Positions 4,111 to 57,700 of a DNA stretch of 64,000 bases are shown piece after piece; position 1 is the first letter of the stretch, and each line of letters opens with the position of its first letter. The notes beneath the pieces are model-generated. The model did no database searches and had not been told where the DNA came from. It saw nothing but the letters and a program-made list of their open reading frames with translations. Made by a program: the position numbers and the translations under genes. The stretch spans positions 42,108,714 through 42,172,713 of the forward strand of contig CM049320.1 of the NCBI GenBank assembly GCA_026874595.1, given 5' to 3'. Source of the DNA: Sipunculus nudus. Taxonomy: Eukaryota; Annelida; Sipuncula; Golfingiida; Sipunculidae.

Positions 4111-7100
4111 ACCCTGATAAACTGGAAATCGCGAAGATTTAACCTCACATATATATGAAGCCAGCAACAGCTTCTCTTATATCTCTGAACAGAATTGCAA
4201 AAGTATGGAAAGAAAAAAAAATCGTTTGATGAATCGGGAAGAAATGACCTTTTTCTATATTTTATTACTGACGGTTTTTATGAGGGTATGTAGTTATTTA
4301 GAGGTGTGTGTGTGTGTCTGTATGCCATTATCATGTTTGATTATGCAATGGTTAAGATCCTCGCTCTTTAGCTAAAAAGTGACATAAACTTTTTTTTTTC
4401 AAATAGTCCTCTCCAATTTCTTCAAGATCTTGAGAGTGAAATGTATGCTGATACTTATTTATGTTTACACGGATTCCTAGTTTCCTTTTTTTTGGGATAA
4501 TTTTTGTTATTTTTACATATCAGTCTTTGTAGCTTTGTGTAAATAATGTAAGGAAATTGCCTTCAGTTGATATTGATCACTTCAAAGAAATGCCTACCAT
4601 CCTGCTTTGCTTTGCCTATCATGTTTATTTACTTTTTCCCAAATCTTGTCCTGACAGTTCATTTTCAGATATTTCTGTCAGCATGCAGCGAGCCTCGCCG
4701 AGTTGGATTAAAATTATTAACATTCATAGCTATATGAGCCTATTTAATAAAAATACTGAAGCACCAAAGCACGTATACAAAAACCCACTGAATCTTTCAG
4801 GTTGACTGACAGGAATGACGCAGGCGATTTTAATTATATCCTTCGATCAATGACCGACCTTGAAGTACGGCGTCTCTCTCCGACTGTCTGATAAAGATCG
4901 ATTTTTCTTATCCCTATGGCCACAACATGTCAAAGTTTTACTGTCTGTTAGCGCTGAAGGCATTCATTTCTTATACCTATAGCAACCTTTAGCTAGTTCC
5001 TATATTTTAATACAACACAAAAAAAGTGACATTACTTACTTTCTATTTTGTTGTTCATATATATATATATATATATATTGTGGCATTTGCCATTTTACCC
5101 GCACAGTTCAAAATTGATCTCTTACCGAATCTTAATAGTTACGAAAATAGCATGATCAAACAAATGAACATAGTTAGTTGAAGAAAAGAAAATTTATGGA
5201 TAAAATTGGATATTTAGATTACATTTATCAGACCACACGTTATTCTCCTCTCTCTATTTTGCCCAAACACCCCGGCCATTCTGCTCGTCCCATGGAGTCC
5301 ATGGTACAGCCTTGAATAGGATGCGTAATAACTGCGGTGTGTAACTTGTTGGCTTGTGAGTGCTCAGAACTTGAGCGCGGGCCGCGGATATCGTCTGCCG
5401 TACACAGGTGGTCCCCTCTAACTCACCATGGCAACCTTGCATTCATGGAGAAGACCTGGTTCTCTAGGTTTATGAATTCTGTTCCTGATGTTATAGAGAC
5501 AGTGTAACCCCGAACTAGCCCAGAAGTAAATACACGTATCGGTTGTCGGCCAGGTATGTGGTATTTCCTGTATTATCAGCTACTGTGAGTAGTTTTTACC
5601 CGATCACTTTTCATTAAAAAAAATGTAACTTGAATATTTGCTGACATGGATAAACATTTATATCGCCTGTTTTTTTTTGTGTTTTGTCAATTTAAAAAGG
5701 TAGATTTTCTTATGCACTTAGTTTTCGCAGTTTTACTCAAAACTGTTAAGATAAACCCGTAAAAATTTAAATTTAAAATGAAAAATTAGAGTGTGCAAAT
5801 TTAGGGTAAGAATTAAGGGAAAAGAAGGCGATAACTTTTTAGACATCTTAAAGTAGGCAGAAAACTTAATAACTGAGTCACCCCAAAGTGTACAGCCAGC
5901 ATTGAATGAATCCGTTTTGAATGATTCATTGCGTGTTCCCTGTAAGTAAATATTCAATCTACCATTTCCGGAACACTGAAACCAGTTTATATTTTGTTTA
6001 ATCCCACAATGAAATATTTCATATGATCAGTTTCTCGTGAAAATAGCATAAATACTTAATTGCCATGGGACCTGACGTTGACTTCAGTCTTGATCGAGAC
6101 TATATCAATACATACAATAGTGGCAGTCATTGTGACGTTTGTGTCTATCATAGTATGTGGTAGGAAAAAATTCAGGGGTCGAGGAATATATCTATAAGAA
6201 CAGGAAATAAAAAGAAAGAAAGTTGATATATATGTTAAGGTTAAGTTGCTTAGGCTTTATGTTATAAGGTTGTTTTATGCAGTGAATTGACAGATTAGGC
6301 TTGATGACTTGTAAAGTTATGCGGAGAAAGAACGAGGGCCTTGTCTATTGAGTTGACGATCAATTTAACAACACGGTTGTTTGGCAACCAAAGCAGCCCC
6401 ACTCACACGTTTCGGATGTATCACCAGGTGAGATGCGAATGCTCCCATCAGGGTCCTGCTGACATAACATCGTCCAGAGCTTTTCTTTTGCTTCCAGTAT
6501 TATGGTGATATTTCTAGAAATGAAGCAATCTTGATGTACATTCAAATTAATATATGAAGTTTGTTACATACCTGTCCCCATGAGCACATTGTCTTGAAAA
6601 GTGATAAATGTACACGTCTGTTGATTATGTTAGGTTGCTTGGAGTATTGTCTTAGTACATGTATTTTAACAATAGCCGTGAATACACGATCGGTAGGCGT
6701 TTATACTGAACTACTAAAGCCCACATGCTCATCACGTAGCGGTCATATACTACAGTCGCCCAAGCGCCTTGGCTTTAACCGCTGCTCTCTAGGCCTACAG
6801 CAAGATTATCTGAGTCCTACCACCAGGGTTAGCACAGAAAAAGAAATTGTAATGTGATAAATGAGAAAATGAGAGCGTGGTATCGCATTGTGCATATGTC
6901 TCCAGATTTTAAACATACGACACCCGCTCTCGTTGGTGTGATTACACCGATTCTGGCACAGGGCCAAGAATCAGACGAACGAGGGCGGGTGTCACTGTGT
7001 AATCAGTCCAAAGAGAGCGGGTTTGGCTATACTTAAATTTGAATATTTAATATTTGAATTTAAAGTCTACTGACGCTGGTGTACACTCTCTGGTGCAGTG

Positions 7101-12555: not shown

Positions 12556-13700
12556 AAACTCTGATCAGTACTGCACGTGGGATTTCCTTCAATTGTATAC
12601 AAAATTCAACTTTGCTTAGGCCTTCCCGTGGTGTTTCATTCCATGTAATACTAGCTTAAACTGTGATCAGGCCTGCACGTAGTATTTCATTCCATGTGAA
12701 ACTGAATTCAACTCTGATCAGGCCTGCACGTGGTATTTAATTACATGTGATACTGGCTTAAACTCTGATCAGGCCTGCACGTGGTGTTTCATTCGATGTG
12801 AAACTGAATTCAACTTTGATAAGGCCTGCACGTGGTATTTAATTCAATGTGATACTAGCTTAAACTCTGATCAGACCTGCACGTGGTATTTAATTCAATG
12901 TGATACTAGCTTAAACTCTGATCAGCACTGCACGTGGTATTTAATTCCATGTGATACTAGCTTAAACTCTAATCAGGCCTGCACGTGGTATTTAATTCCA
13001 AGTGATACTAGCTTAAATTCTGATCAGGCCTGCACGTGGTATTTCATTCCATGTGATACTAGCTTAAAGTCAGATTAGCACTGCACGTGATAAGTCATTC
13101 CATATGATACTAGCTTAAAATCAATTCAGCACTGCACATGATATTTCATTTAATGTGATACTAGCTTAAAGTCAGATCAGCACTGCACGTGATATTTCAT
13201 TCCATATGACACTAGCTTGAAGTCAGATCGCACTGCACGTGATATTTCATTCCATATGATACTAGCTTAAAGTCAGATCAGCACTGCACGTGATATTTCA
13301 TTCCATATGATACTAGCTTAAAGTCAGATCAGCACTGCACGTGATATTTTATTCCATATGATACTAGCTTAAAATCAGATCAGCACTGCACGTGATAAGT
13401 CATTCCCATGTGATGTTAACTTAAAATCTGATGAGGACAGCCCATGGGATTTCATTTCACGGAATATTCCATTCTATGTCGTACTTGCCAACTAAAACTA
13501 TGACTGCATGTAGCATTCCATTCCAAGACAAACTGACTGCAGGTATCATTTCATAGCGTGTCATAACTAGCCAAAACTAAATGTGGTGTCCCTTAAATCA
13601 TCAAACTAGGACTGTTCGTGGTATTCCATATCATACTAGCTTAAAATCTGACCAGGATTGCACGTAGCATTCCGTTTTTTTTTTCATACTATTTTTTTAA
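12556..13700. repeat. ~52-bp minisatellite with a CACGTG in most units
   Basis: Tandem units of 51-53 bp, each with a TGATCAG-like start, CTGCACGTG, a TTTCATTCCAT-like block and ATACTAGCTTAAA. I count 14 CACGTG palindromes between 12,574 and about 13,395. Two subfamilies are arranged in blocks: GGCCTGCACGTGGTATTT units on the left (to about 13,050) and GCACTGCACGTGATATTT units on the right (to about 13,420). Units at both ends are decayed; the right edge fades out near 13,700. The array ends about 1.4 kb upstream of the TMEM26 start codon. CACGTG is the canonical E-box core, but any regulatory role is inference. Confidence 0.92.
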
Positions 13701-31200: not shown

Positions 31201-34200
31201 CCACACGGGCCCTGACTAACCAGTCAGGGGGACTAACATTCAACCTCGAGAATTTATGGGTGAGTGAAACATGCGACACACTTAGCATAATTGATAAAGA
31301 CACCCTGTTATTATGATATTGTTGTCCAATATTACACATTCCCGGAGCACGAGGTAAAATTCATTTTATTGTTTTATCGGCGGACCCTTCAGTTCAGATG
31401 GCCTAACACTTTGCTTGTAGATGGTGGGCATAATGGTTAATGGTTTTGACAATGGCACTATAACCGGTCTCACATAATTACCGGGTAACCTGAACGCAAA
31501 GGATTGACATCCAAATGTTGTCAAACCCTGGCTTAGAGGCCAAAAAAGGCATGATATCCTTTTCTCAACACTGTATCTGCTGTTACCATAAAGCCCGCGA
31601 GAGGTCTATTAGCCGGAATGTTTTAATATTACTTATTTTTTAAGCATGTATGGAATGATTACCGAACGTATACTGGTGAAACGTGTATCAACGTGTTTTA
31701 TATTTTACGAATAATCTATGACATTTATACGTCTGTTAGTAAATGTTTACCTTCCCCAAGCAAAGTTCGTCTATGCTGATCACCAATGTAATAATGTTAG
31801 TAAATGTCATGGTGGTAGTCAGCGAAGATACGGTTTTTCTATTGGAGAGCAGTTAGCGAAGGTCAAAATCCGTTATTTTAGGATGGAAGTTATTTTTTAT
31901 AAAGGATAGGTCCATGGCCTGTCGTTGGCATTGTCTATTATATGAGGATGAAGGTATCCAGAAGAAAAGAATGAATATTTTGTTATCATTAAGCCTTCTA
32001 GATTTCAGGTTTTCTATGCAAGGGCTGAGGAATAGTCCACAAGTCAAAACCTGTCGTTAAGACATTAGAGCGAATCTATGCCGTTCTAACAAGATTCCAT
32101 CATTTTACAATTGAGGCCCCGGTAGGGTTCGTACCGGGGACCTTCAGTTCCAAAGTCCACCGCTTAACCGTTAGGCTACGTCCTACACCCTTAGGATGGA
32201 AGTAAGCGGAGGTCAAAATCCCTTGCTTCAGACTAGAAGTTAACGGAGGTCTAAATCCCTAACTTCAGGATGGTAGTTAGTTGGGGTCTTAACCCTTGCC
32301 TCAGGATGGAAGTAAGCGTAGATCTAAATCCGTTACTTCAGGATGGTAGTTAGCGGAGGTCTAAATCCCTTGCTTTAGGATGGTAGATAATGGAGCTCTT
32401 AATCCCTTGCTTCAGGATGGTAGAAAGCCGAGGTCTCAATCCCTTGTTTCAGGATGGCAGTTCGCGAAGGTCTAAATCCCTTACTTCAGGATGGTAGCTT
32501 GCGGGGGTCTAACCCCCTGCTTCAGGATGGAAGTAATCGGAGGTCAAAATCCCTTGCTTCAGACTAGAAGTTAACGGAAGTCTTTATCCCTTACTTCAGG
32601 ATGGTAGTTAGTGGGGGTCTTAACCCTTGCCTCAGGATGGAAGTAAGCGTAGATCTAAATCCGTTACTTCAGGATGGTAGTTAGCGGAGGTCTAAATCCC
32701 TTGCTTTAGGATGGTAGATAAATGAGCTCTTAATCCCTTGCTTCAGGATGGTAGAAAGCCGAGGTCTCAATCCCTTGTTTCAGGATGGCAGTTCGCGAAG
32801 GTCTAAATCCCTTACTTCAGGATGGTAGCTTGCGGGGGTCTGCCCCCTGCTTCAGGATGGAAGTAATCGGAGGTCAAAATCCCTTGCTTCAGACTAGAAG
32901 TTAACAGAAGTCTTTATCCCTTACTTCAGGTAGTAGTTAGTGGGGGTCTTAACCCTTGCCTCAGGATGGAAGTAAGCGTAGATCTAAATCCGTTACTTCA
33001 GGATGGAAGTAAGCGTAGATCTAAATCCGTTACTTCAGGATGGAAGTTAGCGGAGGTCTTAATCCCTTGCTTCAGGATGGTAGTAAGCCGAGGTCTCAAT
33101 CCCTTGTTTCAGGATGGAAGTTCGCGAAAATCTAAATCCCTTACTTCAGGATGGTAGCTTGCGGAGGTCTAAACCCCTTCGCCAGGATGGAAGTAATCGG
33201 AGGTCTAAATCCGTTACTTCAGGATGGTAGTAAGCGGAGGTCAAAATCCCTTTCTTCAATATGGTAGTTAGAGGAGGTTAAAATCCGTTAATTCCAGTGG
33301 TAATAAGCGGAGGTCTAAATCCCTTGCTTTAGGATGTTCGTTAGTGGGGGTCTTACCCCTTGCTCCTGGATAGAAGTAAGCGGAGTTCTAAATCCGTTAC
33401 TTCCGGATGGTAATTAGCGGAGGTCTAAATCCCTTGCTTCAGAATTGAAGTAAACGGAGGTCTTTAGCCGTTGTTTCAAGATGGTAGTAAGCCGAGGACT
33501 CAATTCCTTGTTTCAGGATGGAAGATAATGGAGCTCTTAATCCGTTGCTTCAGGATGGTAGTAAGCCGAGGTCTCAATCCCTTGTTTCAGGGTGGAAGTT
33601 CGCTTAGGTCTAAATCCCTTACTTCAGGATGGTAGCTTGCGGGGGTCTAAACCCCTGCGCCAGGGATGGAAGTAATCAGAGGTCTAAATCCGTTACTTCA
33701 GGATGGTAGTAAGCGGAAGTCAAAATCCCTTTCTTCAACGTGGTAGTTAGAGGAGGTCAAAATCCGTTAATTCCAGTGGTAATAAGAGGAGGTCTAAATC
33801 CCTTGCTTTAGGATGGTATATAAAGGAGCTCTTTATCCCTTGCTTCAGGATGGTAGTAAGCTGGAAGTTCGCGAAGGTCTTAATCCCTTACTTCAGGATG
33901 GTAGCTTGCGGGGGTCTAAACCCCTGCGCCAGGATGACGTAATCGGATGTCTAAATCCGTTACTTCAGGATGGTAGTAAGCGGAAGTCAAAATCCCTTGC
34001 GTCAATATGGTAGGTAGCGGAGGTCAAAATCCGTTAATTCCGGTGGTAATAAGCGGAGGTCTAAATCCCTTGCTTTAGGATGTTAGTTAGATGAGATCTA
34101 AATCTCTTGCTTCAGGATAGAAGTTAACGGAGGTCTCTATCCCTTACTTCAGGATAGTAGTTAGTGGGGGTCTTAACCCTTGCTCCAGGATGGAAGTAAG

Positions 34201-37200
34201 TTCTAAATCCGTTACTTCCGGATGGTAATTAGCGGAGTTTTAAATCCGTTAATTCCGAATGGTAATTAGCGGAGGTCCTAATCCCTTGCTTTAGAAAGGA
34301 AGTAAGCGGAGGTCTAAATCCGTGACTTCAGGATGGTTGTTAGCGGAGGTCTAAATCCCTTGCTTCAGGATAGTATTTAGCCGAGATCTAAATCCCTTGC
34401 TTCAGGATTGTAGATAGCGGAGCTCTCAATCCCTTGTTTCAGGATGGTAGTTAGTGGCGGTCTTAACCCTTGCTCCTGGATAGAAGTAAGCGGAGTTCTA
34501 AATCCGTTACTTCCGGATGATAATTAGCGGAGGTCTAAATCCCTTGCTTCAGAATGGAAGTTAGCGGAGGTCTTAATCCCTTGTTTCAGGATGGTAGTAA
34601 GCCGAGGTTTCAATTCCTTGTTTCAGGATGGAAGTTCGCGAAGGTCTTAATCCCTTACTTCAGGATGGTAGCTTGCGGGGGTCTGAACCCCTGCGCCAGG
34701 GATGGAAGTAATCAGAGGTCTAAATCCGTTACTTCAGGATGGTAGTAAGCGGAGGTCAAAATCCCTTGCTTCAATATGGTAGTTAGCGGAGGTCAAAATC
34801 CGTTAATTCCGGTGGTAATAAGCGGAGGTCTAAATCCCCCGCTTTAGGATGGTAGTCAGATGAGATCTAAATCTCTTGCTTCAGGATAGAAGTTAACGGA
34901 GGTCTCAATCCCTTACTTCAGGATAGTAGTTAGTGGGGGTCTTAACCCTTGCTCCAGGATGGAAGTAAGCGGAGTTCTAAATCCGTTACTTCCGGATGGT
35001 AATTAGCAGAGGTCTAAATCCCCTGCTTCAGAATGGAAGTTAGCAAAGGTCTTATTCCCTTGTTTCAGGATAGTACTTAGCCGAGATCTAAATCCCTTGC
35101 TTCAGGATTGTAGATAGCGGAGCTCTCAATCCCTTGTTTCAGAATAGTAGTTAGTGGAGGTCTTAACCCATGCTTCAGGATGAAAGTTAGCGGAGTTTAA
35201 AATCCGTTACTTCCGGATGGTGATAAGCGGAGGTCAAAATCCCTTGCTTTAGGATGGTATATAAAGGAGCTCTTTATCCCTTGCTTCAGGATGGTAGTAA
35301 GCTGGGGGTCTAAATCCCTTACTTCAGGATGGTAGTTAGTGGCGGTCTTAACCCTTGCTCCTGGATAGAAGTAAGCGGGGTTCTAAATCCGTTACTTCCG
35401 GATGGTAATTAGCGGAGGTCTAAATCCCTTGCTTCAGAATGGAAGTTAGCGGAGGTCTTAATCCCTTGTTTCAGGATGGTAGTAAGCCGAGGTTTCAATT
35501 CCTTGTTTCAGGATGGAAGTTCGCGAAGGTCTAAATCCCTTACTTTAGGATGGTAGCTTGCGGGGGTCTAAACCCCTGCGCCAGGATGACGTAATCGGAT
35601 GTCTAAATCCGTTACTTCAGGATGGTAGTAAGCGGAGGTCAAAATCCCTTGCGTCAATATGGTAGTTAGCGGAGGTCAAAATCCGTTAATTCCGGTGGTA
35701 ATAAGCGGAGGTCTAAATCCCTTGCTTTAGGATGGTAGTCAGATGAGATCTAAATCTCTTGCTTCAGGATAGAAGTTAACGGAGGTCTCAATCCCTTACT
35801 TCAGGATAGTAGTTAGTGGGGGTCTTAACACTTGCTCCAGGATGGAAGTAAGCGGAGTTCTAAATCCGTTACTTCCGGATGGTAATTAGCAGAGGTCTAA
35901 ATCCCTTGCTTCAGAATGGAAGTTAGCGGAGGTCTTAATCCCTTGTTTCAGGATGGTAGTAAGCCGAGGTTTCAATTCCTTGTTTCAGGATGGAAGTTCG
36001 CGAAGGTCTAAATCCCTTACTTCAGGATGGTAGCTTGCGGGGGTCTAAACCCCTGCGCCAGGATGACGTAATCGGATGTCTAAATCCGTTACTTCAGGAT
36101 GGTAGTAAGCGGAGGTTAAAATCCCTTGCGTCAATATGGTAGTTAGCGGAGGTCAAAATCCGTTAATTCCGGTGGTAATAAGCGGAGGTCTAAATCCCTT
36201 GTTTCAGGATGGTATTTAGCCGAGATCTAAATCCCTTGCTTCAGGATTGTAGATAGCGGAGCTCTCAATCCCTTGTTTCAGGATGGTAGTTAGTGGAGGT
36301 CTTAACCCATGCTTCAGGATGGAAGTTAGCGGAGTTTTAAATCCGTTACTTCCGGATGGTAATAAGCGGAGGTCTAAAATCCTTGCTTTAGGATGGTATA
36401 TAAAGGAGCTCTTTATCCCTTGCTTCAGGATGGTAGTAAGCTGGGGGTCTAAATCCCTTACTTCAGGATGGTAGTTAGTGGCGGTCTCAATCCCTTACTT
36501 CAGGATAGTAGTTAGTGGGGGTCTTAACACTTGCTCCAGGATGGAAGTAAGCGGAGGTCTAAATCCCTTGCTTCAGAATGGTAATTAGCAGAGGTCTAAA
36601 TCCCTTGCTTCAGAATGGAAGTTAGCGGAGGTCTTAATCCCTTGTTTCAGGATGGTAGTAAGCCGAGGTTTCAATTCCTTGTTTCAGGATGGAAGTTCGC
36701 GAAGGTCTAAATCCCTTACTTCAGGATGGTAGCTTGCGGGGGTCTAAACCCCTGCGCCAGGATGACGTAATCGGATGTCTAAATCCGTTACTTCAGGATG
36801 GTAGTAAGCGGAGGTCAAAATCCCTTGCGTCAATATGGTAGTTAGCGGAGGTCAAAATCCGTTAATTCCGGTGGTAATAAGCGGAGGTCTAAATCCCTTG
36901 TTTCAGGATGGTATTTAGCCGAGATCTAAATCCCTTGCTTCAGGATTGTAGATAGCGGAGCTCTCAATCCCTTGTTTCAGGATGGTAGTTAGTGGAGGTC
37001 TTAACCCATGCTTCAGGATGGAAGTTAGCGGAGTTTTAAATCCGTTACTTCCGGATGGTAATAAGCGGAGGTCTAAAATCCTTGCTTTAGGATGGTATAT
37101 AAAGGAGCTCTTTATCCCTTGCTTCAGGATGGTAGTAAGCTGGGGGTCTAAATCCCTTACTTCAGGATGGTAGTTAGTGGCGGTCTTAACCCTTGCTCCT

Positions 37201-40200
37201 GGATAGAAGTAAGCGGAGTTCTAAATCCGTTACTTCCGGATGGTAATTAGCGGAGGTCTAAATCCCTTGCTTCAGAATGGAAGTTAGCGGAGGTCTTAAT
37301 CCCTTGTTTCAGGATGGTAGTAAGCCGAGGTTTCAATTCCTTGTTTCAGGATGGAAGTTCGCGAAGGTCTTAATCCCTTACTTCAGGATGGTAGCTTGCG
37401 GGGGTCTAAACCTCTGCGCCAGGATGACGTAATCGGATGTCTAAATCCGTTACTTCAGGATGGTAGTAAGCGGAAGTCAAAATCCCTTGCGTCAATATGG
37501 TAGGTAGCGGAGGTCAAAATCCGTTAATTCCGGTGGTAATAAGCGGAGGTCTAAATCCCTTGCTTTAGGATGTTAGTTAGATGAGATCTAAATCTCTTGC
37601 TTCAGGATAGAAGTTAACGGAGGTCTCTATCCCTTACTTCAGGATAGTAGTTAGTGGGGGTCTTAACCCTTGCTCCAGGATGGAAGTAAGTTCTAAATCC
37701 GTTACTTCCGGATGGTAATTAGCGGAGTTTTAAATCCGTTAATTCCGAATGGTAATTAGCGGAGGTCCTAATCCCTTGCTTTAGAAAGGAAGTAAGCGGA
37801 GGTCTAAATCCGTGACTTCAGGATGGTTGTTAGCGGAGGTCTAAATCCCTTGCTTCAGGATGGTAGTTAGCCGAGGTCTAAATCCTTTGCTTTAGGATAG
37901 AAGTTAACGGAGGTCTAAATCCATTGCTTCAGAATGAAAGTCAGCTGAGGCGAAGGTCCATTATTTTCAGTAAGAAATTTAGGGGAGGCCAATTAGGTCC
38001 ATTACAGAATGGTAGTTGTACAGGTCAAGATCCGTAACATCAGGATGGTATTTAGCAGAGGAGGGTAATTTGAGAATTACAGAATCCCTCACACCATTAA
38101 ATAGTTTGCGGGGACCAAGAACCGATCTAATCACTGCCCCTCATATATTGTGATAAGAAAATCATAATAATTGATACTATGAATATTGCACTGTACAGTG
38201 GTTTATAATGCATGCAATAAAGAAGTTTTTTGACAGGATTTTTGCCTTTGTGTAGTTCATCAAAGTAAGGAACGGGCACATGCATGTCATTTTGAACAAT
38301 TAATGGTGAAATTCACACATGTTAAGGATAAATAATAACATGGATAGGTTAAGTCACAACAGTACGGCAGATATAAACAGGGCTGAGTCACCGGCAGACT
38401 CACCTGTTTTCTATATCTATTACCTATCTCTCACACGTGAGAGCAATGCCCCACATACCTATTCACCTTACAGGGGTCTGTGTTCCCCTAATTAAAGAAC
38501 CATAGTCATCAAATACGACAGGTGGGGGGCGCACTGCTCACAGCCCTAGATCTGTCTGATTGAGACCATACGGCAAGTGGGACCAGCACTGCCACTTGCT
38601 GCCTACCGCCAGACAGAGTCTATTACTAATAACTCAGAAATTCTTAGATGAATAAAGTGAAAAATAACACAGTACCTTAATGCTCTTGGTGAATTTGTCT
38701 ATTCAACAGTATGCGTATCACAGGACCTCTGTTCTCATGCGGTAATAACTACTAATATTTACAAAATATGTATCTTAGGACCAACGTTGTATTGCTGAGT
38801 AACTGTTGATTTTAGCAATAATTGTCCTTCAGGACTGTGTTGTATGTATTACTGTCATGAATAATATGTAATTCTATTAATATGTGTATCTCAGAACCTG
38901 TGTTTTAATGTATTAATAACTGCCAAAATGCAGGTTATACAATTAAGTCTGTTGATTCGCCTGTTTACTGTGGAATGAATGATGTATCTGACACTACTAA
39001 AATATGATCGTCTTGATGGGAGGAGATTTTATACAAAGAATGACTATTTGAATTAATTATAGGGTGAAGATAGCAACAATCCGGGGTTAACTGAGACATG
39101 CGCCATATTTTCAAGTTCTCAGTTTCTGGGCTTGTTCGGTATAATCCCGGTAGGGTGCGCCTGTCACTAATTTTGCTGCTTCTTGTGTAAGAAATGTGAC
39201 CTTTAGCCTAGCTCAGAGAAAGCGACCTTGTAAATATACAAATAAACCGTGATAAAGATTGAAGACGTCTCGGTTTTTATATATATGATGTCTTACTTGT
39301 GTAATATTTCGCATGGTTATTTAAAACTTTTAGTTATTTTCCCAATTATTTCTGCATCAGTTTCTGGTCCACGTCATGTCACAGCCCGACATGATAAAAG
39401 GTCTTAAAAGAGAACACTTTCTTACGTCATTAAAAATATGAATAACGAATTTGACCTAAAAATGTTATCAATATACCCTAGACCACTGTATCCGGTTTAT
39501 TAATCCCCCAAATCTCCCCTGTAAAACCACCACAGCGAAACTTTATGTACTTCCCCTATATATCACTATCGAGACTAAATGGTTCAGGTATTCACGAAGC
39601 CTTCAAGGAATTAAATAACTATGCGAAGCACGGTGAGATTTTTTGCTTCTCCAAGTATGTGTTTATTTTGCTGGATGTGCTGTTTATCGTGCGCTTTATA
39701 ACGCCAGGGCTTGTACCCAGGTCTTCCCAAACCTCTTTGATCCGGTCCAGATGCTTTCATGGCGGAAATGAAGCTAATTTCCCAGCTAGGGTTGCCGGCG
39801 TCAAGGGAGCCCGGGCCCTGCGGGTGGTCGCTACTTACAGGGGAAAACTTCGGTGACGCGATTAAATAGACGTGCCGTGGCCTTGGTTATTGTTCAGTTC
39901 ATTTACATAATTTATCTGACTTGCCGGATAATTCAGGGTTACGTTCAAGAAACAGCAAAAACAAACGTTTCCTTGTATTTCGGTTGTTTGACAGCGTTCA
40001 GTAAATTCTGCCTACATGGGTTAATAACAGCTTAATCTTATTGCAACTACAGTGACACCTCGATAATACACGCACACCTCTTGATCTGCCCAGACACACT
40101 GTTAGGATCATATTATATACACAGTCATGTATCTCTTGTAATTATTACAAGAAAGCATTTTTGGAGCGTTTATAATGACAAACACAAAACAACCACCTCC

Positions 40201-41072
40201 TGAGCAGCAACTCCCGGACGTTTCAAAACATTTTGTCTTTATCTGTCTCAAATTGTTTTGAATTGAACTTGTGAACGCTGGAATTTTTTTTACCCATGTC
40301 CAATACGCTTACCTTGCCTTGCGAAGGCGTAAAGAATACCTTGCTTAATTTGTATATGTTTATTATACTCTAAGGAGTTCCGGATCAACCTGAACCTGAC
40401 GTCAGACCAGTGGGTGAGGACCATTGAGCAGGTTCTCCTCCTCCTTCTCATCCTGGGACGCTGGATGCTGCCTAAAGGGAAGCTGACACACGACCAGCTG
40501 TCTCAGCTGCTCCTCGTCTACATCGGCACCGCCGCCGACATCGTGGAATTCTTCGACGCTTTCAAAGAGGAGGAGGTAAGACCACTCTGCTCTTTATGGT
40601 TTGTGACGTCACAATCTGACCCCCACAATGCACCGCGGCTTCTAAGTACACAGATGGCGTAGGTATAAATGTAGTGAAAGGGTTAATTTCTTTCGTTCAA
40701 GTAAGTAGGATAAGCATTGTTTCAAGGCAAATTGCATAAACAGGGGTATTCTTGTTGCACGGAATAAGTGATATTTTATAAAATCTTTCCTTGAAATGTA
40801 ACAAGTTTTTATTATAAAGTTTGGCATCTGAGATAACTAGTCCCGGCCGTCCATCAGTGAGAAACAAGAAAAGGTTTGTTTTGAGTGAAATGACCTCTGG
40901 CGAAAGGGTGGATCAAGACCACACCAAAAACAAAATAGATCTACTTTTTCGCCGCTCCCGTGATTTGCTTTTAATTTTGACCATAATCTTTTGAATTTTG
41001 TTATTGTCTGCCCCTTACTCGATTGCTAAAAAGAATTCTTAATGCTATAGCAAATGGATTTATTTTGTGTTG

Positions 41073-41141
<69 letters not shown>

Positions 41142-42916
41142 CTCTGAAGAAAAACAACACTGTTAATTCACAACAGACTGTTTCACGGGATGCGAACCGA
41201 TCATCAGGTGAATGTGGTTAGAAATTTATATATATATATGCTTCATTTCAATATTTGAAGTTTTGTATTTTTCCTGGCAAGCTGGGCTAAATTCCGCGTT
41301 TTCTGTCTCGATCGATATTGAAAAATTAAAATAAAAATCGCTCGCTCACACAGAGGACGGGGAACACATTTTGTTTGTTTGACATAATATATACAAAGGC
41401 ATTCGCAGACTTCAGTAAAATTAAGGTAGTCACTGGCGAAACCCAAAAAGTAACACTCGTTTGTGGGTGAAAACGAATGTTGGGCACTGTTTTCTCATTA
41501 AGCCTGCATAGCGCTCATCCTGGTTGGAGACCGGCCGCGAAATAATCTGACCGCTTCTCGGATTAGATTCAGAGAATCACGAACTCTCGGCTTTAAGTTC
41601 TTATACTCTGTTCCCCAAGACCACGTCCACGTAAGCCTGTAAAATAAGATTAAAATATCGTGATATATATATATATATACCGTTTTTATTTGTGATTTAT
41701 ATGTGTTTAATACTTCGCATACAAAAATCCGCAGACAGAATAGATTTAAATGACGGGGATTGATATAATGGTCCGCCCCGCTCAAGTGGTCTGACTGACT
41801 CCTCTGACATATAGACCTACATTGATCCACAGATAAATATCACCAGTATATATGGTTGTATAAGTGGACTCTAGCATGATTCAAATTCTGTGAACTCGTT
41901 GTGTGATCTTGTACTTTAATATCCATGATGGTTCTTTGGATTTGTTATAGCAATTCCACAGAGTTATGGCTTTCTTCATACAAAATACTTACCGTTGGTA
42001 TTTTCGTCTCCATACATGAAACTGTCCCACGGCGATCTGAAATTACTTAAAAAAGAGTCTCTCCCCCCCCCCCCCCCCCCCAAAAAAATGAAAATATATT
42101 AAAACGTTTCAAATTTTGAAAACGGAAAATACCCCATGAAATTTTGGCCTATCTGTCTGGGGTATATATTATATATTTAAAAAAAAATAACTGTCAGCAT
42201 ATCGTTATATAATATTTTTTTTATAGTAATGCCTTCTGTCGGAGGAGAATCTCTTTTTTTAATAATGCCTTATTACTTCACGGTTTCATAATGATCAATA
42301 AAAGAAAGACTAATCAATTGGTCACTGATTCCATATTTTTTTCTGTTGCCTCCAGGTTCGCTACAATCGACTGCTGTGCAAGGTGATTTTAGCCATATGG
42401 TCCTGGAGCCTGTTACAGTTCACGATGGTTCTAACAGCAACCAAAGCACGCAAGGACCAGTCGGGTGTCCTATCTCGTCCGAAAAACGACGGACGAAACA
42501 CATGCTGCACGCCAGATGTGTACGGCATCATTATTTCAATATTCATGCAGGACGCGCCATTTTTGACACTGCGTCTGCTTCTCATTTTTAGATACAAAGT
42601 TGTGAGTTACACCAATATGTTCTTTACCTGCAAGAACACCTTGGTGATTTTGTTGTTAATGTACAGACTGATAGTGGTACAGATAGAACGGCGCAAAGAC
42701 AGGGGCAGAAGTCAGGAATACATGCACATGAGCGAAAGCAACAGTGGCGCCAAACTCATGCACGGCTACAGTGAAAACTACGAGAGAATTAGAACTGCCT
42801 ACGCTAACCATTATAAACCGGCACCAACACGACCCGAGCCCGAATACGAAGACATCCCAGTTAATTTTACAATCAAGAAACACATTTCAAATGACAACAT
42901 TAATTCTCTAGCGTGA
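15088..42916 (+). CDS. TMEM26: Transmembrane protein 26 (TMEM26), four coding exons, complete
   Basis: The coding exons join as 15,088-15,278, 31,094-31,259, 40,375-40,575 and 42,356-42,916, giving 1,119 nt and 372 residues, close to the length of vertebrate TMEM26. All introns are GT-AG and the phases agree (2, 0, 0). The protein has about eight hydrophobic segments: residues 7-28, 37-55, 69-85, 139-152, 161-179, 193-212, 241-265 and 273-296. Family-typical stretches include LGRWMLP, DQLSQLLLVYIGTAADI and the FMQDAPFL block. Sequons at Asn99, Asn106 and Asn126 lie between segments 3 and 4. The tail (about 297-372) is polar and Tyr-rich. TMEM26 is a multipass membrane protein of poorly known function; in mammals it is used as a beige-adipocyte surface marker. 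The convergent neighbour is the USP5-like gene. Confidence 0.93.
16215..16282. repeat. (TA)n microsatellite
   Basis: TA tract with a few interruptions (TACATA, TACACGTA). Confidence 0.95.
17040..17310 (-). mobile_element. tRNA-derived SINE-like element, copy 2
   Basis: Read on the - strand from about 17,310: an A-box-like GTCGAGGGGTAAAACG, then a B-box-like GGGCTCGATCCC (near 17,237-17,248), then GCCGGTGGTTTTCTCCGG, then GCCATGGAGAGTGCCGCGA, and an AAAATAAATAAA tail near 17,060-17,090. A/B-box spacing and the A-rich tail fit a tRNA-derived SINE. Its 3' end matches the copy at 11.4 kb. Confidence 0.6.
19391..19459. repeat. Short tandem repeat, ~18-20 bp unit
   Basis: About four copies of TAATATGTAATAATTTG with small changes. 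Confidence 0.9.
25172..25337. mobile_element. MITE, 166 bp, TA target duplication
   Basis: Left end CAGTGGAACTCCGC and right end (reverse-complemented) CAGTAGAACCCCGC. The match continues inward through GACCACC with several mismatches, about 28 bp in total. Flanking dinucleotides are TA at 25,170-25,171 and TA at 25,338-25,339. The inside has several GTGGTC words and no coding capacity. TA duplication with CAGT termini is typical of non-autonomous Tc1/mariner-pogo elements; the assignment is inference. Confidence 0.78.
26440..26690 (-). mobile_element. tRNA-headed SINE, copy A
   Basis: Read on the - strand: a tRNA-like head with the A-box TAGGGGTAGAGCATAGG and an anticodon-loop-like GGATTTTAACCC, then a decayed B-box region GTGAGTTATTTCAC, then CGGTCGGCCCTCACC. 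The body continues to about 26,440. The segment from GAGCATAGGATTTTAACCC through GGGTGAACGC aligns with the element at 41.5-41.66 kb (GAGTATAAGAACTTAAAGCC through GGATGAGCGC). The head looks tRNA-Lys-like, but this is tentative. Confidence 0.6.
27360..27830 (-). mobile_element. Possible retroelement remnant with 49-codon frame
   Basis: On the - strand a frame open between stops (27,673-27,822) encodes 49 residues, including TRTFHHHSICKLKLIEQ and INIGLNRDNGFLTYYKD. The composition is protein-like rather than AT-random. About 300 bp downstream on the same strand is GGCCGAGCACCCGAAAGC (27,360-27,379), a motif I associate with the ends of invertebrate retroelements such as Penelope-like ones. Both links are from memory and weak. 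Confidence 0.3.
30300..31114 (+). repeat. Degenerate T-rich repeat running into TMEM26 exon 2
   Basis: T-rich on the + strand, with recurring TTGTTAC...GTCAGTATT words. The best copies are TTACAGGTTTTGACTTTCAG (30,911), TTACGGGCTTGTCGTCAGTA (31,048) and TTTCAGGTTTTGTCCGTCAG (31,089). The last one is the exon 2 acceptor and exon start. Weaker GCCGTCAG/CCGTCGG matches lie at 30,321 and 30,793. Confidence 0.6.
31094..31259 (+). CDS. TMEM26: TMEM26 coding exon 2
   Basis: The acceptor TTTTGTTTCAG is followed by a G that completes Trp64, then residues 65-119. It encodes membrane segment 3 (FFYLLSVVPAIWFLEL) and the start of a polar loop with sequons N99-T-T and N106-Q-S. It ends at TTATGG before the donor GTGAGTG, in phase 0. 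Confidence 0.93.
31851..31890. repeat. Isolated unit of the 37-bp array
   Basis: AGTTAGCGAAGGTCAAAATC followed by CGTTATTTTAGGATGGAAGT is one complete array unit. It is separated from the main array by the 300-bp SINE at 31,891-32,190, so it marks the true left edge of the array before that insertion. Confidence 0.8.
31891..32190 (-). mobile_element. tRNA-derived SINE inserted in the minisatellite
   Basis: Read on the - strand from 32,190: GTAGGACG, then the A-box TAGCCTAACGGTTAAGCGG (complement of 32,160-32,178), then the B-box GGTACGAACCC (complement of 32,125-32,135) flanked by CCCCG and CGGGG, forming a T-arm. The element continues to an A-rich end (TTTATAAAAAATA) at 31,891. It is bounded by a 13-bp direct repeat TTAGGATGGAAGT at 31,878-31,890 and 32,191-32,203. 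That is the structure of a SINE insertion with target-site duplication. The duplicated site is array sequence, so some of the identity could pre-date the insertion. Confidence 0.75.
32191..37940. repeat. ~5.7-kb minisatellite of ~37-bp units with higher-order structure
   Basis: Units resemble GGATGGTAGTTAGCGGAGGT plus CTAAATCCCTTGCTTCA, about 37 bp each and roughly 150 units. Variant units recur in fixed order: one with GCGGGGGTCTAAACCCC followed by a short GATGACGTAATCGG unit occurs at 33,933, 35,585, 36,062, 36,761 and 37,423. About 400 bp at 33,970-34,370 recur at 37,460-37,860, with no difference seen at an offset of 3,490 bp, and a 192-bp stretch at 36,283 recurs at 36,982 (offset 699 bp). 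The right end decays through diverged units near 37,900-38,060. It lies in TMEM26 intron 2. The open frames inside it are repeat artefacts. Confidence 0.97.
37941..40374 (+). other. TMEM26: Remainder of TMEM26 intron 2, nothing recognised
   Basis: Decayed array units to about 38,060, then AT-rich unique-looking sequence. A GC-richer patch near 39,690-39,850 has an open frame I do not recognise. There is no RNA gene and no clear transposon end. Confidence 0.5.
40375..40575 (+). CDS. TMEM26: TMEM26 coding exon 3
   Basis: Residues 120-186, phase 0 at both ends. The acceptor is TTATACTCTAAG and the donor GAGGAG|GTAAGA. It carries sequon N126-L-T and the most conserved part of the family: LLLILGRWMLP (segment 4) and DQLSQLLLVYIGTAADIVEF (segment 5). 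Its codons are GC-richer than the surrounding introns. Confidence 0.95.
41077..41140. repeat. (TA)n microsatellite flanking ribozyme copy 1
   Basis: About 64 bp of TA that abuts the ribozyme-bearing fragment. A short TA run on its other side (41,226-41,239) completes the flanking pair. Confidence 0.97.
41166..41213 (-). ncRNA. Hammerhead ribozyme, type I, copy 1
   Basis: Read on the - strand: stem I ATTCAC (complement of 41,208-41,213); core CTGATGA (41,201-41,207); stem II region; core GAAA (41,181-41,184); a short stem III in which ACA pairs with TGT around a GTC loop; predicted cleavage after TGTT; then GTGAAT (41,166-41,171), an exact partner of the first strand. All conserved core bases are present. 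Stem II (CGG...CCG) is weak. The homologous fragment runs from about 41,142 to 41,222 and is antisense to TMEM26. Penelope-like elements and retrozymes are known to carry such motifs. Confidence 0.8.
41497..41660 (-). mobile_element. tRNA-headed SINE, copy B
   Basis: On the - strand, GAGTATAAGAACTTAAAGCC, then GAGAGTTCGTG, then (after an extra ~29 bp) GATTATTTCGCGGCCGGTCT and GGATGAGCGC. It aligns block by block with the SINE at 26.44-26.69 kb. This copy is shorter and its B box is interrupted. Confidence 0.5.
42356..42916 (+). CDS. TMEM26: TMEM26 coding exon 4 with stop
   Basis: The acceptor TCTGTTGCCTCCAG is followed by GTT CGC TAC (V187 R Y). It encodes residues 187-372: three hydrophobic segments (about 193-212, 241-265, 273-296), the family block SIFMQDAPFLTLRLLL, and a hydrophilic cytoplasmic-looking tail with YSENY, RTAYANHY and EPEYEDIP. 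The stop is TGA at 42,914-42,916. The tail is less conserved in the family, so its exact end rests on the open frame alone. Confidence 0.95.
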   Translation, partial: VRYNRLLCKVILAIWSWSLLQFTMVLTATKARKDQSGVLSRPKNDGRNTCCTPDVYGIIISIFMQDAPFLTLRLLLIFRYKVVSYTNMFFTCKNTLVILLLMYRLIVVQIERRKDRGRSQEYMHMSESNSGAKLMHGYSENYERIRTAYANHYKPAPTRPEPEYEDIPVNFTIKKHISNDNINSLA

Positions 42917-43765: not shown

Positions 43766-43788
43766 GCTCTGGTGTACTACCATAGAGC
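43766..43788 (+). repeat. Hairpin resembling the tail of the ribozyme element
   Basis: GCTCTGG, a short loop, then CCATAGAGC. The same hairpin form occurs at 54,655-54,683 downstream of ribozyme copy 2, and both sites sit between TA tracts. It is therefore probably a third, truncated fragment of the same element. Confidence 0.45.
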
Positions 43789-47638: not shown

Positions 47639-47905
47639 GCGAGGTTTGTCTGAAAAGTAGGCCTAACGGGATTGGTGTCTACAACAATTTATTTCAATGC
47701 GAAACAATAAACTTCTAAGCACCTCTAGAAGGATTCATCTGGGATGCCCCTTAGCTCCTTCGTTTCCGCCCTCTCAGTGGCTTCCACGCATTCGCCATCG
47801 CTTAGAGGGAGAGAAAAAAGTCACACGGAGCAAGATCAGGTGAACAGAGAGTTTGCTAAATTACGGTGATGTTCTTCTCGGTCAAGAACTACCGGATGCT
47901 CAGGG
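47639..47905 (-). pseudogene. mariner transposase fragment, 3' part
   Basis: On the - strand the translation reads FLTEKNITVI, a stop, then SPDLAPCDFF, the signature of mariner transposases, and further on TKELRGIPDESF, which fits the conserved region near the C-terminus. The fragment runs down to a terminal-repeat-like GAGGTTTGTCTGAAAAGTAG at 47,641, next to TATATA. In-frame stops and shifts show that it is dead. Confidence 0.75.
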
Positions 47906-53316: not shown

Positions 53317-53489
53317 TCATATTCTTCTATACATATACAAGTAAGCCAAGTCTTTAGGTGGGTGTTCAGAAAGCGCTACTTTTTCATCATTGAATATGAC
53401 CCATCGCCCGTCCTTGAAGATATGGCACACATAGTGTCCGCACTGTGTGGATGTTCCCATGTGACTGATGAAGGCTTGTAGTTTGTACT
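53317..53489 (-). CDS. USP5: USP5-like last exon: His box and C-terminus
   Basis: The acceptor CTTTCAG is followed by AG, completing a Lys codon, then [20 protein letters not shown] and the rest, to RRI and TGA (53,317-53,319). It contains the catalytic His in GHYV and the WVIFND motif. It ends a few residues short of the vertebrate proteins. Confidence 0.96.
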
Positions 53490-54495
53490 CTGAAAGAAAT
53501 AAACTCAATCTAAAGTTCAGCTCACATATCATAACAACAGTAAAGGTACCAGGTACCAGGCTAATCATTTGATATCACAGACCATGTCAATCAATGCCAT
53601 GGGGTTAGGATGTTTAGTGGTTAAGATAATGGACTACTGAGCAATTGATTCCAGTTTATTCCTGGCGCCATATCAGCCCTCTGACGTTACCAGTGTCAAG
53701 GATGCACTGTAACACTCTATGAGGATGCACATATTTTTGTCTTTTTAGAAAATGCCTGGTGGCCTAAAAGTACGCTGTGACTTGACAGGCCAATTGTTAG
53801 CAGTATTAGTATACCTACTAACAACACCTACACTGTGGGAGAAAATTTTGTTTCAATTTAGCATATCCGTAAATCCAGCTGTATGTTTCTTGAATTTTTT
53901 ACTGTAAAAATACAAGCATGGCTCCCATAGGTTACTAAACTATAGCCAACTTGTATTTGATACAGGAAATGACTCACTACCACAGAGAGAGATTTTCAAT
54001 TTGGTTTGCAAGTTCAAATGTATTAATTTGTGTTAAATCATTACTGATAGCCTAATATTCAGATTAAAAGCTGTTTAACTTTACCAGAATATCAATCTAA
54101 CAGGATGGATGACCACTTTTGTACATTCCCCCTTAGGACTTGTATCATGACTCACAGTAGGTTTACCAATTAAATATAAACTACTATACTTCTGATTCCT
54201 GTAATCACTCTAGTTCATTCTCTGACAAAACCTAATAAAAACTAAATGGAGAACTCTTGATAGGACCTCATGAGATTCACTCTAATGCTTTAACTACAGT
54301 TATGATTTCTGGATTTTTCCTAACCCTGTGCATATAGCACTGAAAATTTAATTGGATATCCTTATGCTCATTCAATAGGCAACAGTCACCCAGTCTTGAA
54401 AAATGTCCATCTCAGTCAAAATAAATTAGTTGGAATTTTGAACATCATAATTTAAAGATGGAAAGATTGAAATTAATGATGTATTATTTATCATA

Positions 54496-54544
<49 letters not shown>

Positions 54545-54736
54545 CAAAACCACACCGTTAGCTTCATTCTAACCACATTCACCTGATGATCGGGTTGCAT
54601 CCTGTGAAACAGACTGTTGTGAATTTACGGTGTTGTTTTTTTCAGAGTTATACCGCTCTGGCCTAGTCTGTAGGCCATAGAGCACTTAACAATGGGGGTA
54701 CCTCTACCTTCTATAAATATATATATATATATATAG

Positions 54737-54788
<52 letters not shown>

Positions 54789-57700
54789 TTACAAAACTTA
54801 ACTAAAATGATTTAAAATAAAACTTTTCAGTAATGCTAAATGTGCAACTGAAAAATAAAATTATCATTTTGTATAATGTGATTATACTTTAAATCACATA
54901 ATAATTACAAGGACAGACATCTTTGTGCTTTGTGGTTTTATATTGTGAGGCTTTCTTACTTCCAGTGCCATCCCTGCACTGTGAGCCTGCTTGTTCTTGT
55001 TCTGAGGCCCCTGATTGGTCAGTCTCCATGGGCATGTCAAGCTCCCCAGCATGACTGAATATCCAATCAGCAGCCCGGTCTACTTGGTTGTCCTGGAAAC
55101 AGAAATGAATATTCACGAACACAACACATTTTTCTAAGAATATATATACATATTAAAATCATTTAAAATAGAAGCCACAATTATATAATAGCTATTGCAT
55201 CTTTCTCAAATTTACTATTAAGACACTTAAATCTCTAAGCATATATTGCTTTCTCTAATCACTGGGCCAATGAAACATCTGGTGTCCAGGAAAAGGTCTA
55301 CTTGAGTGGCTTTGACAGATCTGTGAGGTAGCCATGTTTTAACTAAAATGAACTTTATGGTAAGTTTACTGCCTCTTCCAGGAGGGTATGCATTCATCCA
55401 AGTTTGTTTGTGTTTGTTAAAAAAATACTCAAGAAATTTTCCAGGCATTTCAGGAATGGCCCAATGAAGAATTGTTTAGACTTTTAGTGTGGATCAGGCA
55501 CATAATCTGGTTTCAGGGATGTCATCAAGGAATAATATTTACAAATGTAAGAGTCTGTTATGCATGAATGAACCTGGGAATACAGGCCAAACTAAGTGAA
55601 TACAAACACAGGCTGGGAAGCATTCAAGAACAGGGACTCCCCACATGGCGAAGGCTTGCATTCCTTATATTAGAATGCAAATGTCTAGTTTGCACACAAA
55701 GTCTAGAGTGATATCAATGAATCTGAAAAATGACCTTCCTGTAACATGATATGAATCCTTAATACCAGCTTATCAGAATTTCACACAGCAGTTGAGGTAG
55801 ACTGTAAGCCCCTGAATTTGCATATAAGAAAATCACATTTGTAAGTTCAAGACACACCATTACCACATGGTGAGCAGTGTATTGTGTTTCTGAGGTTCTG
55901 CTGAAAACTTGGGATACCAGAACAACAGTGAAATTCTAGCCATCAACTTATGTAGAGACAGGTGGCACTGTCTGTAATGTTTAACCGCTTTAAACCAGAT
56001 GCAGTGTTCCAGGCCTGACTGAAGGTTTTCCTGTCACCACTGCTGTAGACTGCATTCTCTGTGTAACCTAATCACATTTAAAACTAAAAAACATCGTGGA
56101 CAAACACGCCTGTGCCTGGCTTGGACTACAGCTCTATCCTGCTTCCTTGTTGTTTATATAAGCTCTACTTACTGTAGCTTTGAGTGCTTTGGTTGCCTGT
56201 TCCCTAGTAAATCCCATGGACATGATCATGGCCAAGTGTTCCTCATTAGGCACAAACTCCCTGGCTCCCTTCTTCTTAGACCCTGGCAGCTTTAGTGGTG
56301 CCGCAAAATCTAAGAAGACAAAAGTGTGAAATAATAAAAGACAAAAGTGTGAAATCTAAAAAGACAAAAGTGTGAAAGTTTATTCATTTGATCTTTCTAC
56401 TTAAATATCTATATAAGCCTTCTACAAAAACCAACAGAGATCTTTTTTAATCTAAATTTTTATTATCTATTACTTATTATTGCATACATTGATGAAATGT
56501 ATGCAGTTATCATTAATTCAAATGTATTTTAAATGACCTATTCTGTACCTAGGTATTCTATAAAAGTACTATACCCCTACCTGGACTTGATCATCTCGGA
56601 ATTACCTGTACCTGTTCCTATGTACTTTCACATGTACCTGGCCCAAACCCCTTGGGTGTGATTTTTCAAAGGTTAAATTTACAATTATGGTTGGGGTCTA
56701 AACAAGATATATCAGAAATATTTTTGCTGAACCTTATTAGGAACTAATTTAAGTGAATATTTATTGAACAGTCATCAAATGACCATACACTTTTCTGAAA
56801 TATGTATATAAACCCATTTTAGGTAAAATTTGTTAATGAAAAGGTTCAATCAAATCTATCATGTTTAGAATTCTATCTCTTGAATGGGATTATATCCACA
56901 TGCACAGAACTTCTCTCACATATGCAGAGTTTTTATGATTAATAAATTTTGATTTCAAGATACATGACATGGTGAATTTTCTCTTAATAAATAAAGGACA
57001 TATTCTTGGTGTTTATACAATGCAAGTTTACATGAAGTGTGTGTTGTGCCAGGATTACAGACCTGCGTCTTCCATGTGCGTCATGACCCACTCCATGGCC
57101 TGCTCGAGCCCTGCATTGTTGGTGTGGTACACGGCCTTCTTACATGCCTCCAGTGGGAACCCCATGTCCATAACCTGACTCACCAGGCCTTCATTTATAT
57201 TCACCTCTGTAACAATTACTGACAGTATGGAACATTCATGTTTATAAAAGAATATTCATCTGATTAAACAAACAGAATGCAACTCACCATGGTTAATGCA
57301 AGATTATATATCAGAGTCAACCCTGATGAGATATAGCAGAACAAAGGTCCAATCAAAACCTGCAGGACCATGCTTAGATCAAGCATTATTATAAAGGTTT
57401 CTTAATTCTCCCATCTCTCTGTACATTAATTATCTGAGTATAAAGAACATACAGATATCAGTGTTAACAATCTGCCTATACTGGCCATTATACTGATATC
57501 TTCAATCTGTAAAACAACACAATCTTTTGATATACCCCATTTTTTTTAACTAAACCTTCACACAAACAGGAATGCACAGGGTGTAAGGTCTAGAAAGCTT
57601 TCCCTGTATCATTAAGACCACTGTGCCAGACATCTAAGCTGCCATTTTTGTTGTTAAATTTACTAGATGTTTTCCCTAAAAGGGCCAATGAATAAAACAA

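Follow-up and report, generated by a model that had tools for sequence, protein, structure and literature searches.

The question raised by this locus is whether the window (the whole stretch of 64,000 nucleotides that was analysed) holds an intact, working hammerhead ribozyme at 54552-54633, or a sequence that is related to hammerheads in some looser way. The answer reached here is that it probably carries a hammerhead-derived U10.1-U11.1 motif as part of a short, dispersed, retroelement-like repeat, either the 3' end of a Penelope-like element or a relic of a non-LTR retrozyme, which landed in (TA)n tracts. The described sequence was confirmed letter by letter by a direct read of the window at 54552-54633, and the layout of this first copy (copy 1), as read from the sequence, is as follows.

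54577..54624, plus strand: hammerhead-like core of copy 1 (18.5 bits with our own covariance model, E ~0.0033, second best in the window)
54577-54582 and 54619-54624, plus strand: stem I, ATTCAC/GTGAAT
54583-54589, plus strand: core letters CTGATGA
54590 and 54605, plus strand: the U-U, with U10.1 (T 54590) and U11.1 (T 54605)
54591-54594 and 54601-54604, plus strand: stem II, CGGG/CCTG, with the loop TTGCAT at 54595-54600
54606-54608, plus strand: core letters GAA
54609 and 54617, plus strand: A15.1 and U16.1
54609-54611 and 54615-54617, plus strand: stem III, ACA/TGT, with the loop GAC
54618, plus strand: position 17, a U (T 54618)
54552..54558, plus strand: 5' arm of the outer helix, ACACCGT, which has no counterpart in copy 2
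54627..54633, plus strand: 3' arm of the outer helix, ACGGTGT

The direct read bears out that both conserved cores stand in the right order, in this copy and in a second one described below, and that stem I closes perfectly; next to the core it comprises six perfect pairs in both copies. The letters used here to recognise a type I hammerhead (C3 U4 G5 A6 N7 G8 A9, G12 A13 A14, A15.1, U16.1 and H17, a list taken from PMC3088659) are all present in both. The U-U noted at the base of stem II is real as well, and natural variants with it are already documented (PMC3088659; PMC7229834). It leaves N10.1-N11.1 unpaired in both copies, at a position where the filter of PMC3088659 asks for a pair; the authors of that filter regard most of the matches that it rejected as cryptic mutants of hammerheads belonging to repeated elements. 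The predicted cut site 3' of 54618 agrees with the hammerhead numbering, which would place U17 at this nucleotide. Stem III would be closed by A15.1-U16.1 and has only 3 bp and a 3-nt loop; its letters form an odd palindrome in each copy (ACAGACTGT in copy 1, ACAGTCTGT in copy 2). In copy 1, the pairing of the outer helix is predicted to extend via A+T-rich pairs to ~54540 and ~54652, the outer inverted repeat reaching TATAAC/GTTATA beside the TA tracts. The internal loop between stem I and the outer helix is lopsided, with 18 nt on one side and 2 on the other.

Copy 1 is a repeat. A blastn search reveals a second copy in the window, at 41137-41223 of the minus strand, which shares 92% identity with copy 1 across 87 bp.

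41166..41213, minus strand: hammerhead-like core of copy 2, within the aligned repeat 41137-41223 (19.6 bits with our own covariance model, E ~0.0015, best in the window)

Copy 2 has the same core letters as copy 1 and retains its stem I and stem III, the U-U and the U17; in stem II of copy 2 the U-U is followed by C-G, G-C and G-C. It starts at TTCTAACCAC and thus lacks the outer 5' arm ACACCGT. For this reason the bipartite stem I that had been predicted is limited to copy 1: the outer 7-bp helix exists there, but it is not supported as a feature of the family. Over the 48-nt core the copies show four differences, which leave the core letters and position 17 untouched, as well as all of stem I and the pairs of stem III. 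Two fall in loops, one turns a G-U pair of stem II into G-C, and one breaks the top stem II pair. The two copies are isolated, 13 kb apart and on opposite strands, and neither blastn nor Tandem Repeats Finder detected a tandem copy beside either of them in the window. Two weak profile matches elsewhere in the window, at 47840-47878 (E 0.088) and 6367-6431 (E 0.11), were not accepted as copies.

Tandem Repeats Finder also recorded a minisatellite at 32193-37950, with a 37-bp unit in ~156 copies (73% match; a 110-bp unit fits as well) and raised G+C and GC skew. A 51-bp tandem repeat with ~18 copies lies at 12556-13456; it is open in one frame and includes a repetitive ORF of 131 aa at 12683-13078.

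A chance origin of the layout had been called very unlikely. This is supported by order-2 Markov simulations of the window, of which 0 of 150 gave a structure with at least 3 bp in stem II, 2 bp in stem III and 6 bp in stem I on either strand. When stem I was relaxed to at least 4 bp, 0.0067 structures were obtained per simulated window (one match in 150). The real window contains two descriptor loci, namely copies 1 and 2, which count as one event because the copies are related. The significance within a single window may nevertheless be overstated, since the finding was picked from possibly many windows.

An independent covariance model points the same way. Its training set consists of 30 type I hammerheads from phages, of which one has a U-U, and includes no window sequence. 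Its alignment (A3) has 99.8% of cells paired, and 12 of the 15 pairs vary on both sides; a MAFFT alignment (A2) with an unanchored 3' stem was set aside in its favour. With filters off, this model ranks copy 2 (19.6 bits) and copy 1 (18.5 bits) first in the whole window, both as full-length matches, followed by a third at 12.5 bits (E 0.29). Eighty other loci, together 682,801 bases, served as controls under default filters and gave a single match at E <=10, with 13.0 bits; the E-values of the model are rough and the base composition of these loci is not that of the window. Another 24 loci, selected for U-U patterns or matches, yielded 35 model matches at E <=1 in 16 of the 24, with scores of 18.5-53 bits, and the window copies sit at the lower end of this phage range.

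The search with the type I hammerhead models of Rfam, proposed as a check in the original prediction, matched neither copy. Rfam 15 gave no match at the gathering score anywhere in the window, and no hammerhead at E <=10 in 54400-54800, in 54570-54630 (copy 1) or in 41155-41225 (copy 2). The 23 rows that it did return at 54400-54800 contain no hammerhead and were taken for (TA)n noise. This silence weighs little, because Rfam also misses or misfiles phage hammerheads with a U-U. A hammerhead pattern was used to choose 20 phage control loci; the descriptor recognises a type I hammerhead in 15 of them, and RF00163 passes its gathering score in two (40.0 and 35.9 bits). In the U-U form of locus L364 (6565-6630), to which our own model assigns 42.8 bits, Rfam finds no hammerhead at E <=10. 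The U-U hammerhead of L263 (5948-6014; 21.4 bits with our own model) is filed only as type III, with 19.4 bits and E 0.024, below gathering. Together with the family in the window, these missed or misfiled forms suggest that standard models undercount such variants.

The U-U also recurs in phages. Thirteen distinct U-U type I hammerheads were obtained with the descriptor from IMG/VR among the matches listed (L046, L263, L284, L348, L353, L356, L358, L362, L363, L364, L367, L368 and L406), and four of them (L046, L263, L284 and L348) lie in arrays beside canonical ones. Apart from these, the phage contigs L004, L010, L043, L064, L079, L119 and L300 each carry several type I hammerheads, between two and seven, all on a single strand. 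Position 17 is A in 12 of the 13 U-U hammerheads and C in one, the latter from a search demanding C. Nine of the sequences fit a pattern that allows A, C or T at this position, and all nine have A17, as do the three incidental cases (L046, L263 and L284). In that pattern search, 11 of 22 stretches hold a U-U match, some of them identical. The U-U is followed by C10.2-G11.2 in 11 of the 13, as in the window copies, although in ten of these 11 cases the search pattern itself either specified C-G or admitted only C or G; of the three incidental cases only L284 has this pair. With G10.2-C11.2 beside the U-U instead (CTGATGATGC..GCTGAAAC), 35 stretches were found and none passed the descriptor. Across the 251 distinct descriptor matches among those listed (loci from L003 on), position 17 is distributed by the 10.1-11.1 pair as follows.

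G-C at 10.1-11.1: C17 in 215 matches, A17 in 18, T17 in 2
U-U at 10.1-11.1: A17 in 12 matches, C17 in 1
U-C at 10.1-11.1: C17 in 2 matches
A-C at 10.1-11.1: A17 in 1 match

The C17 majority in this pool is biased, as one contributing search asked for GTC, and related phages make the U-U/A17 counts not independent; a Fisher value calculated on this biased pool was disregarded. Within the loci of one search alone, C17 is still dominant with G-C at 10.1-11.1, at 126 of 141 matches listed (A17 in 14, T17 in one), and the single U-U match has A17. If the link between U-U and A17 in phages holds, it would give a testable statement on communication between stem II and the cleavage site. U17, by comparison, occurs in two of the 251 matches listed, both with G-C at 10.1-11.1. 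Since the U-U recurs in documented variants and in phage hammerheads, it does not disqualify the window copies, and U17 is the odder feature. A wider proposal would be that U10.1-U11.1 hammerheads form a coherent natural subclass, shared by phages and animal repeats, with linked C10.2-G11.2 and non-C17, and that the window family is its animal branch, overlooked by Rfam, acting as a dimer or with the protein of the element and spreading into (TA)n. This is a speculative suggestion that we hold to be quite doubtful.

The predicted folding of the copies is less favourable to a hammerhead. Both contain a competing hairpin, TTCAC-CT-GATG..CATC-CY-GTGAA. In 48-mers, the hammerhead is predicted at -4.7 kcal/mol against -7.0 for the hairpin in copy 1, and at -2.9 against -6.9 kcal/mol in copy 2. 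The pair probabilities of the copy 1 48-mer are 0.33-0.56 for stem I, 0.37 for stem II and at most 0.015 for stem III; those of copy 2 are 0.60-0.996, 0.003 and 0.002. In the 82-nt unit of copy 1 they drop to 0.001 for stem I, below 0.01 for stem II and ~0.05 or less for stem III. The z-scores of the fold are weak, at -1.20 (23 of 200 shuffles as good) and, for 54539-54652 with -25.5 kcal/mol, at -1.60 (12 of 200). Nearest-neighbour energies, however, omit the non-standard contacts of hammerheads. Seven phage pieces of 48-58 nt served as controls: in four (L364, L263, L348 and L036) the predicted minimum is the hammerhead, in the other three (L046, L358 and L021) it is not. Fold prediction is therefore best regarded as no strict test of a hammerhead.

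These energies do give substance to a different reading, in which a palindromic, MITE-like or hairpin repeat fits the hammerhead plan by accident and its true shape is the competing hairpin within the outer inverted repeat. The hairpin is the more stable fold in both copies and places all four differences between them in its loops, and for that reason the two copies cannot decide between hammerhead and hairpin. Likewise, the continuation of the outer inverted repeat to the TA tracts would suit such an element, and single-window E-values overstate the significance of a finding selected from a larger scan. Against this stand the covariance model, which ranks both copies above all control bases, the empty simulations, and copy 2, in which the left arm of the inverted repeat is absent. 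Hammerhead motifs number in the thousands in animal genomes and are common in some animals. Acropora millepora is reported to have more than 6000 motifs of type I (PMC7229834), and such a density of true hammerheads would favour descent if the source is an animal of that kind. An accidental fit is accordingly considered rather unlikely.

Descent from a hammerhead remains the preferred reading, and the short stem III raises the matter of a dimer. The original prediction likened a stem III of this length to those of Penelope-like element and animal retrozyme ribozymes, which often act as dimers. The 3-bp palindrome of stem III in both copies suits such action, but the dimer hammerhead is not the cofold minimum. 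For the 48-mers, the two-strand hammerhead is predicted at -20.5 (copy 1) and -18.3 (copy 2) kcal/mol, twice the monomer minimum at -18.2 and -20.8, and the cofold minimum at -28.8 and -26.1. The 82-nt unit gives -35.1, -39.6 and -50.0, respectively. According to these models the dimer is much more stable than a pair of separate hammerhead monomers, yet it is not the predicted minimum. In the dimer, the palindrome ACAGNCTGT would form eight pairs around one mismatch. A precedent is the axolotl U-U hammerhead HHR_Amex2, whose monomer is reported to cut to 22% in 1 h and whose dimer cuts much more (PMC7229834).

It is very unlikely that copy 1 is an intact type I hammerhead whose stem I is bipartite and which folds and cuts as a monomer. 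It does have a complete core, a 6-bp stem I and an outer 7-bp helix, and the four-of-seven result in the phage controls means that a poor predicted fold is no strict test. The description as intact-looking is nonetheless unsupported, given the U-U, U17, the weak 3-bp stem III, the competing folds with a stem I probability of ~0.001 in the 82-nt ensemble, the lopsided internal loop and an outer helix confined to copy 1. Judging by their base pairs, the window copies would most probably be very slow to cut, or inactive, and any cleavage would be likelier as a dimer or with the assistance of a protein.

The surroundings of the two copies bear on the type of element involved.

54493..54543: (TA)n tract left of copy 1 (Tandem Repeats Finder)
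54712..54786: (TA)n tract right of copy 1 (Tandem Repeats Finder)
41077..41140: (TA)n tract adjoining copy 2 at its 3' end (Tandem Repeats Finder)
53329..57195, minus strand: host gene of copy 1, USP5/USP13-like (UBA_7 1.8e-28, UCH 4.4e-11; PDB USP5 1.9e-20)
40396..42667, plus strand: host gene of copy 2, Tmem26 (Tmem26 1.4e-24 and 3.5e-31)
54655..54683, plus strand: downstream hairpin GCTCTGGCCTA/TAGGCC-AT-AGAGC, in full GCTCTGGCCTAGTCTGTAGGCCATAGAGC (fold -15.5 kcal/mol)
43766..43788, plus strand: related hairpin GCTCTGGTGTACTACCATAGAGC, from a pattern search of the window, between (TA)n tracts (fold -7.3 kcal/mol)

Copy 1 is flanked by Pfam matches to UBA (57058-57195) and UCH (53329-53592), and copy 2 by two to Tmem26 (40396-40587 and 42353-42667). 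Both copies are taken to be intronic and antisense to their host genes, so that the ribozyme strand would be missing from the pre-mRNA of either host. The 5' end of copy 2 adjoins only a short TATATA run. The (TA)n tracts beside both copies and beside the 43766-43788 hairpin mark an AT-rich insertion site, a feature that is not specific to Penelope-like elements.

The hairpins at 54655-54683 and 43766-43788 share the form GCTCTGG..CCATAGAGC and keep the AT bulge. When the two stems are compared without gaps, starting at the base, both partners have changed in two of the pairs (C-G to U-A and C-G to G-U); with these two hairpins alone, such two-sided changes are a hint only. Copy 2 ends before the downstream hairpin. 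Copy 1 has ~65 bp of extra sequence at its 3' side, and the hammerhead unit and downstream stretch together make up ~175 bp. A pattern for this hairpin gave at least 120 matches in viral contigs. The profile of the two copies found no match at E <=1 in the loci from that pattern, among the matches listed, and its sole match among 349 loci was L070 (E 0.037). A pattern for the family itself matched one IMG/VR contig and one Anoxybacillus contig, both judged by eye to be chance matches in bacterial or phage coding sequence, and a stricter family pattern gave no match.

Taken together, the following course may be proposed. The RNA of an active parent element would adopt the type I hammerhead fold, probably by dimerising via the palindromic stem III or with the help of the protein of the element, and would be cut 3' of U17 (54618 in copy 1). 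The copies in the window would be isolated, non-tandem remnants of it, lying antisense in introns. The letters, their repetition, the covariance match and the position relative to genes are observed; descent from a hammerhead, the kind of element, help from a dimer or a protein and any residual activity are inferred.

The motif can be compared with several known systems, and it is not assigned firmly to any of the families concerned (hammerhead, Penelope-like and retrozyme). With the type I hammerhead RF00163 it shares CTGATGA, GAA and A15.1-U16.1, three stems in order and an H at position 17, and it differs in the U-U instead of G-C at 10.1-11.1, in U17, in the 3-bp stem III and in being Rfam-negative. 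The phage U-U hammerheads have the same CTGATGAT..TGAAAC and largely the same C10.2-G11.2, mostly by search design, whereas their stem III hairpins are longer and A17 prevails in place of U17.

Animal retrozymes are described as carrying type I hammerheads, some with a weak helix III, one axolotl family having the U-U (PMC7229834). That family, HHR_Amex2, resembles the window copies in the U-U at the base of helix II, the weak helix III and its place in an animal repeat, a likeness in described features. It is tied, however, to a tandem 350-bp repeat with ~60,000 motifs, as against two isolated copies here. Within the share of the preferred explanation, it is conceivable, if unlikely, that the copies are monomer relics of a non-LTR retrozyme (a circular-RNA element) and not Penelope-like. 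The self-paired unit of copy 1 would fit such an origin. Retrozymes, on the other hand, are reported as tandem repeats of ~150-450 bp, each with a type I hammerhead (PMC7229834), while the window copies are isolated and the hammerhead unit and downstream stretch of copy 1 are short in total.

Penelope-like elements carry minimal type I hammerheads, whose role was still called a mystery (PMC7761336). As described in PMC7761336 and PMC11167929, these elements share with the window copies a weak stem III, AT-rich sites, a hammerhead followed by a stem-loop, and variable 3' ends. They differ in their protein and repeat content: six-frame Pfam scans of 39.0-63.0 kb gave no match to a reverse transcriptase (RT) or GIY-YIG domain, both of which short truncated copies would lack, and no pseudo-LTRs in tandem or partial tandem lie beside either locus. 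In the Anolis element PAc, cleavage favours AT-rich DNA, and reverse transcription begins downstream of the hammerhead, within a stem-loop located 111-118 bp into the ORF (PMC11167929). Its genomic copies have an optional tail of 30-40 bp, shorter than the extra 3' stretch of copy 1. The PAc hammerhead is reported to cut only with protein added, and in vitro insertion persists with its catalytic mutants and hence did not require cleavage there (PMC11167929). Because the layout of hammerhead, stem-loop, variable 3' end and AT-rich site resembles that of PAc, a Penelope-like origin appears to be favoured for the window copies.
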